This document shows, piece by piece, positions 29,388 to 35,221 of a DNA stretch of 38,552 nucleotides (the stretch's first letter is position 1; every line of letters begins with the position of its first letter). Origin of the DNA: an uncultured Eubacteriales bacterium (GTDB lineage: Bacteria > Bacillota > Clostridia > Oscillospirales > Oscillospiraceae); NCBI GenBank assembly GCA_900321275.1, contig ONVI01000030.1, forward strand, positions 1-38,552. Reading direction: 5' to 3'. The notes beneath the pieces are model-generated. The model was not told where the DNA came from, made no database searches, and was given only the letters and a program-made list of their open reading frames with translations. The position numbers were made by a program, and so were the translations under genes.

Positions 29388-29788
29388 GCCTCACGCCCTC
29401 CCTTCGCACAGTTTTCCAACGCTCTCGCCGTTCGGTGGATTTCGCCAGCTCGTCGATGTAATCCTGCTGTACATCTGTGCAGTTCGTCGGCATCTGAAGC
29501 AATCCAAAAGCCTGCGCCGGGATCTGACAAAATCGGCGCTCCCATTCTGCGCTCAGTGCAAATCCGGCGCGTGATCTCGCGGGGCTTCTGGCCTGTGATC
29601 TTGCACAGTTCTCTCGTGGTCAGCGCATTTTCTCTCCCTTTGGACAGTAGAAACGCAACGGAGCCTTGCGCGGGGGAGAAGTTTGTGATAAAATCATACA
29701 TGGGCAGTTCGTCGAAGCCGTCAAGCCGCGTCTGCTCTCCGCCGCTCCCGGTCTGATCCACCGGGGCGGCTTTCTTTTGCCTTGTCAT
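29384..29788 (-). CDS. Winged-helix DNA-binding protein, 134 residues
   Basis: The middle part (PAQGSVAFLLSKGRENALTT, RELCKITGQKPREITRRICT, ERRMGAPILSDPGAGFWIAS) has the layout of a winged helix: HTH followed by a beta wing. Such proteins are common in Gram-positive prophages and integrative elements near the replication genes. Precise role unknown. ATGA overlaps link it to both neighbours. Confidence 0.6.
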   Translation of the reverse strand: MTRQKKAAPVDQTGSGGEQTRLDGFDELPMYDFITNFSPAQGSVAFLLSKGRENALTTRELCKITGQKPREITRRICTERRMGAPILSDPGAGFWIASDADELHRCTAGLHRRAGEIHRTARALENCAKGGREA

Positions 29789-29979
29789 TTTCCCGCCTCC
29801 GCATTGACCGCTTCCATGCTTTCCCGTTCGAGCTGTTCAACAAGCGCCTGAACGTTAATCAAAAAACGTGTCCCGGAAAAGATACCAGGGCAACGGCCCT
29901 CTTTGACAAGCGCCCTGAGACGGTGCTCGGGGAGTATTCCGATTGCTGCCACTTGCCGAATTGTCTTAAACTCCGGCAT
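29785..29979 (-). CDS. Excisionase-like / MerR-type small DNA-binding protein
   Basis: 64 residues. MPEFKTIRQVAAIGILPEHR followed by LRALVKEGRCPGIFSGTRFL is the short winged-helix pattern of Xis and Tn916-type excisionases (helix, turn, recognition helix, then the wing G-FL-NV). First gene of the leftward operon, under the switch promoter at 30034-30062. It has a good GGAGGTG upstream. An excision role is likely but could also be regulation. Confidence 0.7.
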   Translation of the reverse strand: MPEFKTIRQVAAIGILPEHRLRALVKEGRCPGIFSGTRFLINVQALVEQLERESMEAVNAEAGK

Positions 29980-30021
29980 TTTGCACACCTCCAAAAATAA
30001 AATGATTTTCAACGGTTTTCG

Positions 30022-30062
30022 TTGACATTTGCAAGTATACATGCTATTTTGTATTTCGTGAA
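30022..30062. promoter_or_regulatory. Face-to-face promoters and operator of the element's switch
   Basis: Plus strand: TTGACA (30022-30027), spacer 17, TATTTT (30045-30050), driving the XRE gene. Minus strand: TTCACG (30057-30062), spacer 17, TATACT (30034-30039), driving the xis-like operon. The near-palindrome GCAAGTATACATGC (30031-30044) lies where both promoters overlap and is the likely repressor site. Confidence 0.7.
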
Positions 30063-30112
30063 GATACGTAACAGCTACATTTGAAAAGTAATAATCGGAG
30101 GATTGTATCTCT

Positions 30113-30718
30113 ATGGAATACAGCTTTTTGGAAATAGCACAGCGGATAGTTGATCACCGCCATGAACGGAAAATGACACAGGAGCGTTTCATTGAGGAAT
30201 TAAACAATCAGGGCGTGAGTATTGGCAGAAATCGCCTTTCCAAAATTGAGAATGGAGAAGGAAAGGCGTTCAGTCTCGACTTTTTACTTGCCTGCTGCAA
30301 AATTTTCAATACCGATATAGGCCATCTCATGGGCGAATACGAACAAAAAAACCGTGATTTCGCTTTCGTCTGCGAATTTACAGGACTTTCAGAGTGGGCA
30401 GTTGATGCAATGACTTTTTATCGCAACAGCTACGCGATAGAACAACTCGGCAAGCTGCTCCAAGATAAAGAATTTTGGGAAATGCTTTCGCTGTTTGAAT
30501 CTCATAAAAACATGGCCCCAGAGATAATGCAAAAGAATAAAGAAACTGTTGATTTAATGTATCGTGTCGCAAAAGATGCAGAGAACAAAGCACTTTCAGA
30601 GCGATATGATCAAACTGCTATCTATCTTGACGAACTTCGATATAGATACAATACTGACAAAAGGCGCTGCCATGTTATCCTCGATAATATTGTAAATCGG
30701 TTTCTTCCAAACATCTAA
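30113..30718 (+). CDS. XRE-family transcriptional regulator of the element
   Basis: 201 residues. N-terminal XRE helix-turn-helix (residues about 8-70: RKMTQERFIEELNNQGVSIG, RNRLSKIENGEGKAFSLDFL), then a long helical C-terminal domain (residues about 85-200) without metal or peptidase motifs, possibly a TPR-like sensor. The only rightward gene of the element. It faces the xis-like operon across a shared promoter region, as lysogeny repressors do. AT-rich compared with its neighbours. Confidence 0.85.
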   Translation: MEYSFLEIAQRIVDHRHERKMTQERFIEELNNQGVSIGRNRLSKIENGEGKAFSLDFLLACCKIFNTDIGHLMGEYEQKNRDFAFVCEFTGLSEWAVDAMTFYRNSYAIEQLGKLLQDKEFWEMLSLFESHKNMAPEIMQKNKETVDLMYRVAKDAENKALSERYDQTAIYLDELRYRYNTDKRRCHVILDNIVNRFLPNI

Positions 30719-30723
30719 AAAAA

Positions 30724-30751
30724 CGCCCGTCCCCATGATCGGGGGCGGGCG
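30724..30751. terminator. Terminator between the XRE gene and the 48-residue gene
   Basis: CGCCCGTCCCC / GGGGGCGGGCG hairpin, 11 pairs with one G-U and a 6-base loop, between convergent genes. Confidence 0.75.
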
Positions 30752-30773
30752 CTGTGGTATGGGTTTAACGCTT

Positions 30774-30920
30774 TTACTTGGTTGCCTGAATTGATGGAAT
30801 ATCCTGCTTGTTTTTCTCTGCCAGAAGAATATTAAGCACCTCACGCGCTTCTGTTTCGGTTAAAGACAGAATAGCGCGTTTTGCCTCTTCTCTCAGAGCG
30901 TTTAGATTCTTTTCACTCAT
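30774..30920 (-). CDS. Small hypothetical protein, 48 residues
   Basis: Helical, charged protein (NALREEAKRAILSLTETEAR) with no recognised family. The start at 30920 has GAGGAG eight bases upstream; a longer frame to 30965 overlaps the integrase end. It is 41 bases downstream of the integrase gene on the same strand and probably co-transcribed with it. Confidence 0.55.
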   Translation of the reverse strand: MSEKNLNALREEAKRAILSLTETEAREVLNILLAEKNKQDIPSIQATK

Positions 30921-30961
30921 TACGAAAACTCCTCTCTTGTTTTTCGGCTTGTGTTCCTTAA

Positions 30962-32179
30962 TCATGCGTTCTTGGTGATAAGGCTTTCAATTCCGTCAAC
31001 TGTTCGGCGCTGTTTTTCTTCTGATATACCGACATAAAATTGCATTGTTGTGGATGCGTCTTTGTGTCCAAGAAGCGCCTGAACGTCTTTCAGATCAGCC
31101 CCGGATTCAAGCGCGAGGCTTGCCGCTGTGTGTCTCAGATCATGCGGTGAGACATCCGGCAGACCGTTCTTTTCGACAAACTTTCTGACATGGCGGGTTA
31201 CACTGTCCGGCCTGAGCGGGCGGTAAGGATCAGTAAAATTGCAGAAGATGAAGCCCGCCGGGAGGATCAGCGCATGAAATGTTTCTTCCTGCCCTTTCTT
31301 GAACTGCAAGAGCATTGCGCACAGCCGCGCGGATATAGGAACGATTCGCGTCTCCCCGGTTTTTGTCTTGCCGATATGCAAGCCGCTCTCCGCGTCTTTG
31401 TCAAGGGTTACATTCCGCACGATAGAAAGCTCCAGCTTGCCCGCGTCCAGATCGCCCCATTGCAGGGCTACGACTTCACCCCGGCGAAGTCCGGTTGTAA
31501 TCAAGACATTCATCAAGCAGCGCCAGTATAACGGTTCCTCCGCCATGCAAGCCATGAAGCGCACGGCCTGTTCCTGTTCCAGAAAATCCACTTTCTTTTT
31601 GTCTCTGTGCGGCTTTTCCTTTTGTGTCAGATCGGCGGTGGGATCTTCTTTGATGTAATGCAGGCGCTTTGCATATCCGAGAATGTTTCTCAGTGTTCCA
31701 AAATGATGCTGCTTTGTTGTTGCACTGAGAGGTTCGCCGTTCTTAGTCGTGGCCTCTTTGTTCAAATATCGGAGGTAGCGCTTGACAGCCTCAGTGTCAA
31801 TCTGATTCAGGCGCTTTGACCCGAAATAGCTCACGAGGTCAGCTGCCATATATCGAAAGAAGCTCACGCTTGACGGCGTGTGTTCTCCGTCCATGACATG
31901 ATCTTTCATCCAATGGTCACGCACAAAGGATTCAAAGCTGATGCGGTCAATATCTTCCTTTGCATGGGTCTTGTTATACTGTGCTACCTGTTCCCGCTCC
32001 CATTCGTCGGCTTGCCGCTCAACTTCTTTCTGTTCCTTTTTTGGGGTCAGCCCTTCAGGCCGGGGAATGGTGCATGTGCGCCAGACTTGCCGCCCCTGTT
32101 CATCCCGAGCAATACAGGCGCGAAACCTGTAACCCGTTATTGTCCCGCTCTTGTCTTTTCTGGTGTCTACGGTAGCCAT
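30962..32179 (-). CDS. int: Tyrosine-type site-specific integrase
   Basis: 405-residue tyrosine recombinase that integrates and excises the element at tRNA-Pro. Order: N-terminal arm-binding domain (residues 1-60, KSGTITGYRFRACIARDEQG), core-binding SAM-like domain (about 75-190), then the catalytic domain with Arg in TGLRRGEVVALQW, His and Arg in HDLRHTAASLAL, His in LLGHKDASTT and nucleophile Tyr in MQFYVGIS. The start is the ATG at 32179 with AGGAGG. The open frame continues upstream only through the attachment arm repeats and is not coding there. The gene abuts attR, as expected. Confidence 0.95.
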   Translation of the reverse strand: MATVDTRKDKSGTITGYRFRACIARDEQGRQVWRTCTIPRPEGLTPKKEQKEVERQADEWEREQVAQYNKTHAKEDIDRISFESFVRDHWMKDHVMDGEHTPSSVSFFRYMAADLVSYFGSKRLNQIDTEAVKRYLRYLNKEATTKNGEPLSATTKQHHFGTLRNILGYAKRLHYIKEDPTADLTQKEKPHRDKKKVDFLEQEQAVRFMACMAEEPLYWRCLMNVLITTGLRRGEVVALQWGDLDAGKLELSIVRNVTLDKDAESGLHIGKTKTGETRIVPISARLCAMLLQFKKGQEETFHALILPAGFIFCNFTDPYRPLRPDSVTRHVRKFVEKNGLPDVSPHDLRHTAASLALESGADLKDVQALLGHKDASTTMQFYVGISEEKQRRTVDGIESLITKNA

Positions 32180-32207
32180 GTCGATACCCCTTTCCTCCTG
32201 CAAAACC

Positions 32208-32242
32208 GTGTCAACGAAAGTGTCAACAAATGTGTCAACAAA
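32208..32242 (+). repeat. Right integrase arm-type sites
   Basis: Three direct copies at 32208-32218 (GTGTCAACGAA, one change), 32220-32230 and 32232-32242 (both GTGTCAACAAA), with an exact 12-base period. They lie between the integrase start and attR and match the left-end copies in sequence and direction, so integrase bound here could also control its own gene. Confidence 0.8.
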
Positions 32243-32346
32243 GTTAGAAAAACATATTTCAACTTTCAAGATGATAATACACGAAACGTATTGAGAAATC
32301 AAGAGTTTTTCGACATTATTGCACGATGCTAAACACACAAATTTTA

Positions 32347-32393
32347 GTTCGGGACCAAGAGGCCCGGGGTTCAAATCCCCGCACTCCGACCAA
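32347..32393 (+). repeat. attR, 47-bp direct repeat
   Basis: An identical copy of 25132-25178 holding the 3' part of tRNA-Pro (from the anticodon loop to CCA). It lacks the 5' half, so it is not a working tRNA. Confidence 0.95.
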
Positions 32394-32425
32394 AAAAGAT
32401 GACCCACTTTTGTGGGTCATCTTTT
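32394..32425. terminator. Original chromosomal tRNA-Pro terminator, now beyond attR
   Basis: 14-bp perfect stem AAAAGATGACCCAC / GTGGGTCATCTTTT with a TTTT loop. It directly follows the tRNA fragment, marking the pre-insertion tRNA 3' flank. It also serves the convergent aconitase X operon. Confidence 0.85.
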
Positions 32426-34252: not shown

Positions 34253-34430
34253 TTGTCAATAGATATGGAAAGCACAAGCATCGCACACGGCAAGATCAGC
34301 CGGGTTACATAATACAGTTGACCGATTATGAGCAGTGAACGTCAAGATCGCGCAGTCTGTGTTTTTTGCAGCATCAAGCGGCGGGCAGACCGCGAAGTTC
34401 TAAAGAACTCTTAAACCCGCGTCCATTCTG

Positions 34431-34459
34431 TAGACAAGGGAAAATCGCTGTGTTATAAT
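34431..34459 (+). promoter_or_regulatory. Promoter of the GG-leader LysM gene
   Basis: TAGACA (34431-34436), spacer of 17, TATAAT (34454-34459), followed by AAAGGAG eight bases before the ATG at 34504. Confidence 0.8.
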
Positions 34460-34503: not shown

Positions 34504-34746
34504 ATGTCCGATAATATGAACAAGCTTTCCGATGAATTCGCCGGCCAGGTTTCCGGCGGCAAGGGTGCAGACGGCCCCTCCTGGGTTGAGAACGGCATCA
34601 CCTATTACCGTATTGTCCGCGGCGACACTCTTTCCCAGATTGCCCAGAGATTCGGCACTTCCGTTTACCAGCTCCAGGCCCTGAACTCCGGCCTCATCAA
34701 GAACATCGACGTTATCCGTGAGGGCTGGGTTATCAGAATCTACTGA
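34504..34746 (+). CDS. LysM-domain miniprotein with a double-glycine-type leader
   Basis: 80 residues. The N-terminus MSDNMNKLSDEFAGQVSGG looks like the leader of class II bacteriocins and other peptides exported by C39-peptidase ABC transporters: a short charged helix with hydrophobic residues at spaced positions ending in Gly-Gly. After it follow a Gly/Asp linker and one LysM module (TYYRIVRGDTLSQIAQRFGT, then YQLQALNSGLIKNIDVIREG and WVIRIY). There is no Sec signal peptide. Export by leader cleavage after GG and binding to peptidoglycan or chitin-like glycans is inferred. It has its own promoter and terminator; no transporter gene is near. Confidence 0.85.
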   Translation: MSDNMNKLSDEFAGQVSGGKGADGPSWVENGITYYRIVRGDTLSQIAQRFGTSVYQLQALNSGLIKNIDVIREGWVIRIY

Positions 34747-34763
34747 TTTCACAGACACAATGC

Positions 34764-34799
34764 AAAAACGGCGCGGCCCATGGGCCCGCGCCGTTTTTG
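34764..34799 (+). terminator. Terminator of the LysM gene
   Basis: AAAAACGGCGCGG / CCGCGCCGTTTTT-type hairpin with a short CCATGGG loop and a T tract included in the 3' arm. Confidence 0.85.
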
Positions 34800-34817
34800 C
34801 GTTCCTTTTCCCCGTTC

Positions 34818-34879: not shown

Positions 34880-35221
34880 ATGTTTGAGAAGCGAGTGGAC
34901 ATTTTCAAAAAGCGTGACCGTGAGACCTGGCTGCAGATCAGGGCGGCGCTCAAGGAGGCCGGGCTTCCCGGCGTCAAGTCGGGCCATTACCTGCAGGAGA
35001 CCGTCATAGGCGGCGGCTGCGGCGCAAAGCTCGATCCCCGTAATTTCGGCAGCCGTGGCGCCATCGACCGCGATATCTACTGGGTCAAGGTGATCGCCGG
35101 CGATGAGGAAAAAGCCCGTGAAATCCTGCGGCGCAACGGCATCGTCCCTGTCGTGGAGGAAAACGTCCTGCTTGACGCCGCCCTGCGCAAGCGTCCCAAG
35201 GAGGATTACTTTGAGCGCTAA
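34880..35221 (+). CDS. Small cytosolic protein, possibly DUF2007-like
   Basis: 113 residues, basic, no membrane segment. The stretch DRETWLQIRAALKEAGLPGV and the later GDEEKAREILRRNGIVPVV form a helix-strand/helix-strand pattern like the DUF2007 'signal-transducing' fold, with a Gly/Cys loop (VIGGGCGAKLDP) between. The match is weak and no function can be given. It has its own promoter and ribosome binding site and ends at a strong hairpin, so it is a real monocistronic gene. Confidence 0.75.
   Translation: MFEKRVDIFKKRDRETWLQIRAALKEAGLPGVKSGHYLQETVIGGGCGAKLDPRNFGSRGAIDRDIYWVKVIAGDEEKAREILRRNGIVPVVEENVLLDAALRKRPKEDYFER

Follow-up and report, generated by a model that had tools for sequence, protein, structure and literature searches.

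Small LysM proteins with double-glycine leaders in uncultured Oscillospiraceae: probable cargo of an unlinked NHLM-type exporter

The window analysed here is a stretch of 38,552 nucleotides from an uncultured Eubacteriales bacterium of the Oscillospiraceae, and one of its genes probably encodes a small wall-binding protein with a C39-type leader, which an unlinked NHLM exporter would carry out of the cell and whose LysM domain would bind peptidoglycan. The evidence, all drawn from sequence, lies in the leader, the LysM domain, a family of paralogues, the exporter, the co-occurrence of cargo and exporter across genomes and their clustering in relatives. An earlier sequence-only reading, which had seen in this gene a LysM domain behind a double-glycine (GG) leader, is supported as essentially right, yet the gene proved to be one of a large family with seven copies in this genome. 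The features of the window are:

34399..34416, + strand: conserved box TCTAAAGAACTCTTAAAC (consensus TCTRAAGAASTCTTAAAC), a candidate activator site, 14 nt upstream of the -35 element
34431..34459, + strand: sigma-70-type promoter TAGACA-N17-TATAAT, 11 of 12 consensus bases, TG ahead of the -10 element
34504..34746, + strand: gene of the GG-leader LysM protein, 80 aa, ATG start
34504..34560, + strand: double-glycine leader, residues 1-19, predicted cut after Gly19 (L-12, A-7, V-4, G-2, G-1)
34606..34740, + strand: LysM domain, residues 35-79 (PF01476, 45.4 bits against a cut-off of 20.9; predicted structure and fold matches)
34758..34805, + strand: intrinsic terminator-like hairpin
34880..35221, + strand: downstream gene of conserved position, near the GG-LysM gene in relatives as well, no part of the system

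The window protein consists of the 19-residue leader MSDNMNKLSDEFAGQVSGG, with the two glycines at residues 18 and 19 as numbered in the sequence-only reading, followed by 61 residues with one LysM domain. The Pfam scan matched PF01476 with an E-value of 7.7e-12, above the gathering score. In the structure model, pLDDT is about 88-93 per block from residue 21 onward and below 50 in the leader. A fold search of the PDB with this model returned LysM domains as its first five matches (rmsd 0.7-1.3 Å); the best E-value among the fold matches was 0.0075, and such weak values may be expected for a domain so small. The best sequence match among PDB entries was LytE (8i2e). The assignment of the domain to LysM rests on the family match together with the predicted fold. 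No class II bacteriocin family scored above its cut-off for the window protein in the family scans.

The gene had been credited with its own promoter, ribosome binding site and terminator. The first two hold, the promoter with a spacer of 17 nt and the ribosome binding site as AAAGGAGA directly ahead of the ATG. For the third, a hairpin of -34 kcal/mol (z -6.3) is present and is absent from the output of a simple terminator scan. The claim that a Sec signal is lacking was borne out, since the first 45 residues hold no Sec-like hydrophobic stretch (best 10-residue Kyte-Doolittle mean 0.01); LytE, for its part, is exported by Sec. The product of the downstream gene has counterparts of 78-82% identity at five loci (L048, L085, L086, L089 and L090), two of which, L048 and L086, seem to be one contig and are both counted. 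Upstream of the GG-LysM gene, positions 29785-32407 of the window hold a tyrosine-recombinase-like ORF with small excisionase-like and helix-turn-helix-like ORFs close by, a region that reads, by eye, like an integrated element.

The genome of the window (G000; 101 contigs, 93.4% complete) carries seven full-length GG-LysM copies, on contigs C64 (the window), C29, C61, C38, C59, C55 and C46. When full-length members are defined as matches to a 32-row profile that begin no later than model position 7 and lie in open frames of at most 205 aa, 33 of the 61 genomes (60 congeners and G000) have members, the classes having been assigned by hand from the matches listed, down to about E 2.6e-7; the raw profile tally of 54/61 also includes ordinary LysM proteins. 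Nine G000 stretches, most of them picked because of their GG-LysM genes, contain 753 ORFs with lengths of 50-130 aa; the leader pattern fits 12 of these, namely seven GG-LysM genes, three that look like other GG cargo and two that look spurious. At greater distance, 394 order-level genomes, a sample in which G000 is the sole representative of genus g1, gave no leader-onward match in a short ORF outside G000 under the strict bound of E<=1e-14, and G669 of this sample has one match from position 6 inside a 443-aa frame. In 300 family-level genomes, with at most 18 candidates scored per genome, full-length short-ORF matches were confined to genera g1 and g84 among the matches listed. A scan of named genomes considered the best 80 of 228 loci and translated 43 of these; an intact GG or GA leader was found in 14, from 13 Ruminococcaceae records with RUG isolate names (RUG presumably standing for rumen) and one Eubacteriales record, one further locus (L103) lacks GG, and 28 of the 43 are LysM proteins without a GG/GA leader, mostly long. 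Two short LysM ORFs of other genera, L188 (truncated by a contig end) and L189, have no GG leader.

Two neighbourhood and architecture observations belong to this family. A secreted-looking protein (L042:7378-8880, L044:7825-8898 and L166:7685-9196) adjoins three of the G000 copies and, in relatives, further ones; this possible partner has a homologue in L047 that matches nothing in Pfam or NCBIfam. Additionally, one relative has two tandem double-glycine leader-like segments ahead of the LysM domain (L028:1483-1887, - strand).

The leader is conserved throughout the family. Residues -2/-1 are GG in 86 and GA in two of the 88 distinct full-length members from the loci fetched, a recovery biased toward leader-bearing proteins by a search profile that itself contained the leader; countering this bias, only G051:C39:5, at a contig edge, began after position 7 among the matches listed with frames of at most 205 aa. 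After reduction to 59 representatives at 80% identity, the leader ends in GG in 58 and in GA in one; position -12 is hydrophobic (L, I, M, V or A) in 58/58, position -7 likewise (L, V, M, A or I, with Ala counted as hydrophobic) in 58/58, and position -4 is V, A or I in 56/58. These are the leader positions described as packing into the C39 groove of LahT (PMC6363468), and the window copy has L, A and V there. The consensus L(-12)-x3-E(-8)-L(-7), which describes one transporter, ComA (PMC6363468), does not fit the window copy, where -8 is Phe and -7 is Ala; in the family, Glu occupies -8 in 31/58 and Leu -7 in 39/58 representatives. Better leaders than that of the window copy exist in the family.

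The sequence-only reading had allowed that homologues might keep the LysM domain and vary freely ahead of it. This was refuted: the leader pattern is kept, and the segment from GG to the LysM core ranges in length from 9 to 34 residues across the family, as a processing boundary at GG would predict. Its companion expectation, that GG and the hydrophobic spacing are conserved, stands for the family as a whole and gives way in places: position -7 is Ala in the window copy, and one further copy (L103:7896-8147, + strand) lacks the GG and the linker, apparently through an internal deletion, and retains the frame and the LysM domain. The ratio pN/pS was 0.50 in the leader versus 0.28 in the LysM domain (25 pairs), which indicates that both are constrained, the leader less so.

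The C39 transporter that such a leader calls for is present in G000, as a C39-ABC protein above the curated cut-off. The exporter and its neighbours include:

G000 C58:10539-12719: C39-ABC protein, 726 aa (PF03412, 120.5 bits; TIGR03796, 928.3 bits against a cut-off of 853.3)
L053:10105-10527, + strand: short HlyD-like protein, 140 aa, between the STAS protein gene and the C39-ABC gene
L053:9239-9565, G000:C58, + strand: GG-leader protein with two CW_7 repeats (PF08230, E 2e-27), ahead of the STAS gene

A TIGR03797 protein (740.8 bits against a cut-off of 709.4) is encoded after the C39-ABC gene and is followed by an 84-aa GG-leader protein. G000 has a single C39-ABC exporter of NHLM type (TIGR03796 with TIGR03797). 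Residues C28, H102 and D118 of the C39-ABC protein lie in contexts fitting a Cys-His-Asp triad; going by sequence motifs, they make a plausible catalytic triad. The 140-aa HlyD-like protein matches TIGR03794 over positions 1-86 of 421 only (45.5 bits against 156.2), short of a full-length match. Short homologues of it occur at 15 of 18 exporter loci, L053 included, and the remaining three stretches end there. The exporter cluster also features a recurrent DUF218 protein (L047:8105-9562, - strand; L053:15283-16497, + strand). A second C39 match, on C61 (280 aa), was rejected as an exporter because its N-terminus looks, by eye, like a signal sequence and its frame contains no ABC part. A natural-product reading of the Nif11 type was likewise rejected for G000, which has no match to Nif11 precursors (TIGR03798) at E<=0.01; at that threshold 16/61 genomes have one. 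The window gene (C64) and the exporter (C58) are unlinked, and no C39 domain occurs within 15 kb of any of the seven GG-LysM genes of G000.

What ties the two together is their distribution. Across the 61 congeners, kinship ignored, a C39 domain (PF03412) was found in 32/33 genomes with GG-LysM versus 5/28 others (Fisher p 5.5e-11), and TIGR03797 (E<=1e-150) in 32/33 versus 4/28. The C39 association weakens when only the 23 best genomes are taken (11/12 versus 3/11, p 0.0028, kinship again ignored). The co-occurrence proposed beforehand holds in these relatives with one exception, G059, which has two GG-LysM genes, no C39 domain, no TIGR03797 (E<=1e-150) and no TIGR03796 above the cut-off in an assembly 93% complete. 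Of the five C39-positive genomes without GG-LysM, three (G039, G045 and G050) have Nif11-type precursors and another, G052, has a GG-CW_7 gene beside the exporter (L173). A Nif11 match (E<=0.01) is found in 12/33 GG-LysM genomes versus 4/28 others (p 0.08); GG-LysM is therefore no simple replacement of Nif11, the cargo types are not exclusive, and the exporter may serve natural products in those 12 genomes. Physical linkage is seen in relatives, where GG-LysM genes adjoin both ABC genes of the NHLM-type exporter (TIGR03796 and TIGR03797). A C39 domain lies within 15 kb of 42/111 GG-LysM genes, in 21/33 genomes, a gene count that omits five partial or weak rows (G051:C39:5, G015:C26:69120, G058:C1, G058:C31 and G060:C94) with genome classes unaffected; the row on G015:C26 looks like a genuine GG-LysM gene. 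Among 29 loci that were chosen and not drawn at random, 18 hold the exporter, and of these 10 have GG-LysM genes and 11 a GG-CW_7 gene. GG-LysM and exporter share one contig in genus g84 (G144:C30 and G350:C43), and the same linkage occurs in genus g1 (G169, G322 and G064).

These data bear on two readings in which no export takes place through the C39 route. That the product is a soluble LysM protein whose N-terminus resembles a leader by accident could draw on the two apparently spurious ORFs among 753 that fit the pattern; the 86 GG and two GA among 88 members, the fixed hydrophobic spacing, the C39 co-occurrence and the clustering speak against it, and this already disfavoured reading is scarcely credible. 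Since LysM proteins such as SafA function without Sec, the gene might alternatively encode an intracellular spore-envelope protein in which GG is incidental. The LysM domain has a weak similarity to that of SafA (TIGR02899, E 1.3e-4) and SpoIVA occurs in 39/61 congeners. A SpoIVA match is nevertheless absent from G000, 93.4% complete as it is, and in the control comparison of the 61 congeners SpoIVA was not enriched with GG-LysM (18/33 versus 21/28, p 0.12). The conservation of the leader and the C39 link would also go unexplained, and the spore-protein reading, set aside after the SpoIVA test, is very unlikely.

Other proteins carry leaders of this type. A PepSY protein with a double-glycine leader shares its stretch with a GG-LysM gene:

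L166:9376-9642, G000:C55, - strand: GG-leader PepSY protein (PF03413, 44.4 bits against a cut-off of 24)

In a relative, an SH3-like protein follows a GG leader (PF08239, 23.9 bits, below the cut-off of 27). GG leaders also stand on cysteine-rich proteins, one of them zinc-ribbon-like (family matches below cut-offs), and on further proteins without a family assignment. The candidates for such cargo came from a permissive pattern with 50 entries, many spurious-looking, of which 10 proteins were domain-scanned. That the exported LysM proteins act like bacteriocins, binding or blocking the walls of competitors, would agree with the export route, which is that of bacteriocins, with the number and diversity of the paralogues, and with sub-cut-off leader matches in relatives (TIGR03949, E 4.8e-4; PF10439, E 0.036-0.046, on other cargo). 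The mature part is nonetheless a lone binding domain in which no hydrolase or pore-forming part was found, and no bacteriocin family scored above its cut-off among the proteins scanned, which leaves antagonism an improbable role, if the least improbable of the rivals.

The box ahead of the window promoter may serve to regulate some copies. Its consensus has two exact matches genome-wide, in the window (C64) and at G000:C29:38828-38845, both upstream of GG-LysM genes, and with up to three mismatches one match was found in the window against 0.02 expected from shuffles. Box, 14-nt gap and 17-nt promoter spacer recur together in 13 of 14 rows compared, some rows being near-identical strains; the promoter is absent from the fourteenth row, L092. 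The gene after the box is GG-LysM in 12 of the 13, and in the other, L116, a GG-leader zinc-ribbon-like gene comes first with the GG-LysM gene behind it. The box may be an activator site. An operator common to all copies was rejected (five further matches with three mismatches each; six matches with the reversed control), and an OmpR-type repeat in other upstream regions, fitted by eye, was dropped. A dedicated box, together with a response-regulator-domain protein and other regulator-like genes in the clusters of relatives, would also suit a signalling role, in which the leader is that of a secreted signal and the LysM domain holds the signal near the cell. The part after GG is, in opposition to this, a predicted globular LysM domain with its linker and no short peptide, and signalling appears distinctly unlikely.

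The preferred reading, a small wall-binding protein exported through the C39 route, can be put as a sequence of steps. The window gene would be transcribed alone from its own promoter and its product exported without Sec. Residues -12, -7 and -4 of the leader would fit into the peptidase-domain groove of the C58 NHLM-type exporter, which we infer to handle this unlinked cargo; the leader would be cut after Gly18-Gly19, and the 61-residue remainder would pass out and fold outside. The LysM domain would then bind peptidoglycan, most likely that of the producer, wall binding being what its membership of the LysM family leads one to expect. The paralogues, the CW_7 protein and other GG cargo could together form a non-covalent coat of small modules. 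The function of the N-terminus as a C39 leader is the best-supported step, and the producer's own wall as the target is the least certain. A wider proposal, which we judge as likely as not, is that of a Sec-independent second secretome, in which an NHLM exporter has shifted from natural products to serving generally for small folded extracytoplasmic modules (LysM, CW_7, PepSY and probably SH3-like and zinc-ribbon proteins), with unlinked cargo, a box-controlled subset and an exchangeable, non-covalent wall coat.

The novelty appears to lie in the class of cargo, a paralogous family of small peptidoglycan-binding domains, and in its tie to the NHLM exporter; the machinery is known. In the portions of the open-licence literature covered, no description of GG leaders fused to LysM was recognised. 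Annotation commonly assigns GG leaders and C39 exporters to bacteriocin or pheromone systems. Should wall-binding modules travel by this route too, some loci in uncultured gut Clostridia now labelled "bacteriocin" are misread, and Sec-based predictions of secretomes miss a class of surface proteins. A natural route for the display of small domains is also suggested, with a 19-residue tag, a predictable cut and cargo that may anchor itself.

Among known systems, the NHLM transporters of NHLP and Nif11 precursors share TIGR03796 and TIGR03797, the GG leaders, often several precursors per genome, and co-occurrence with clustering (PMC2887384); Haft et al. (2010) used a co-occurrence argument of this kind to link the NHLM transporter trio with its precursors (PMC2887384). 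Those precursors are described with long leaders and hypervariable peptide-like cores, whereas GG-LysM proteins have a leader of about 19 aa and a domain with a predicted fold, and the HlyD-like partner is short here, unlike that of the NHLP/Nif11 systems (PMC2887384). The microcin V type I system is reported to export a wide range of small proteins with length as the main limit, which makes small-domain cargo plausible, although it is Gram-negative and the cargo was engineered (PMC10231218). In Synechococcus elongatus, the EbfG1-4 proteins resemble the present family in being a set of small GG-motif proteins whose role concerns biofilm and is not antibiotic, and whose secretion is aided by the C39-type peptidase-transporter PteB; they differ in belonging to a cyanobacterium, and the account of them, as far as it was available, names no wall-binding domain (PMC4997328). 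The LysM of LytE (PDB 8i2e) and of the LysM/YG proteins of L. reuteri (PMC3873254) serves as a wall-binding module, as proposed here, in larger proteins. The MAM protein of Faecalibacterium comes near in having a GG leader on non-bacteriocin cargo of a gut Firmicute, with a C39-ABC transporter, and in being abundant in the cell envelope (PMC12184118). MAM is described as being without known domains, exclusive to its genus and adjoining a PCAT gene in most species (PMC12184118); the GG-LysM cargo, unlike MAM, is a LysM domain (with CW_7 and PepSY beside it), multi-copy and partly unlinked, and its exporter is of the NHLM type.
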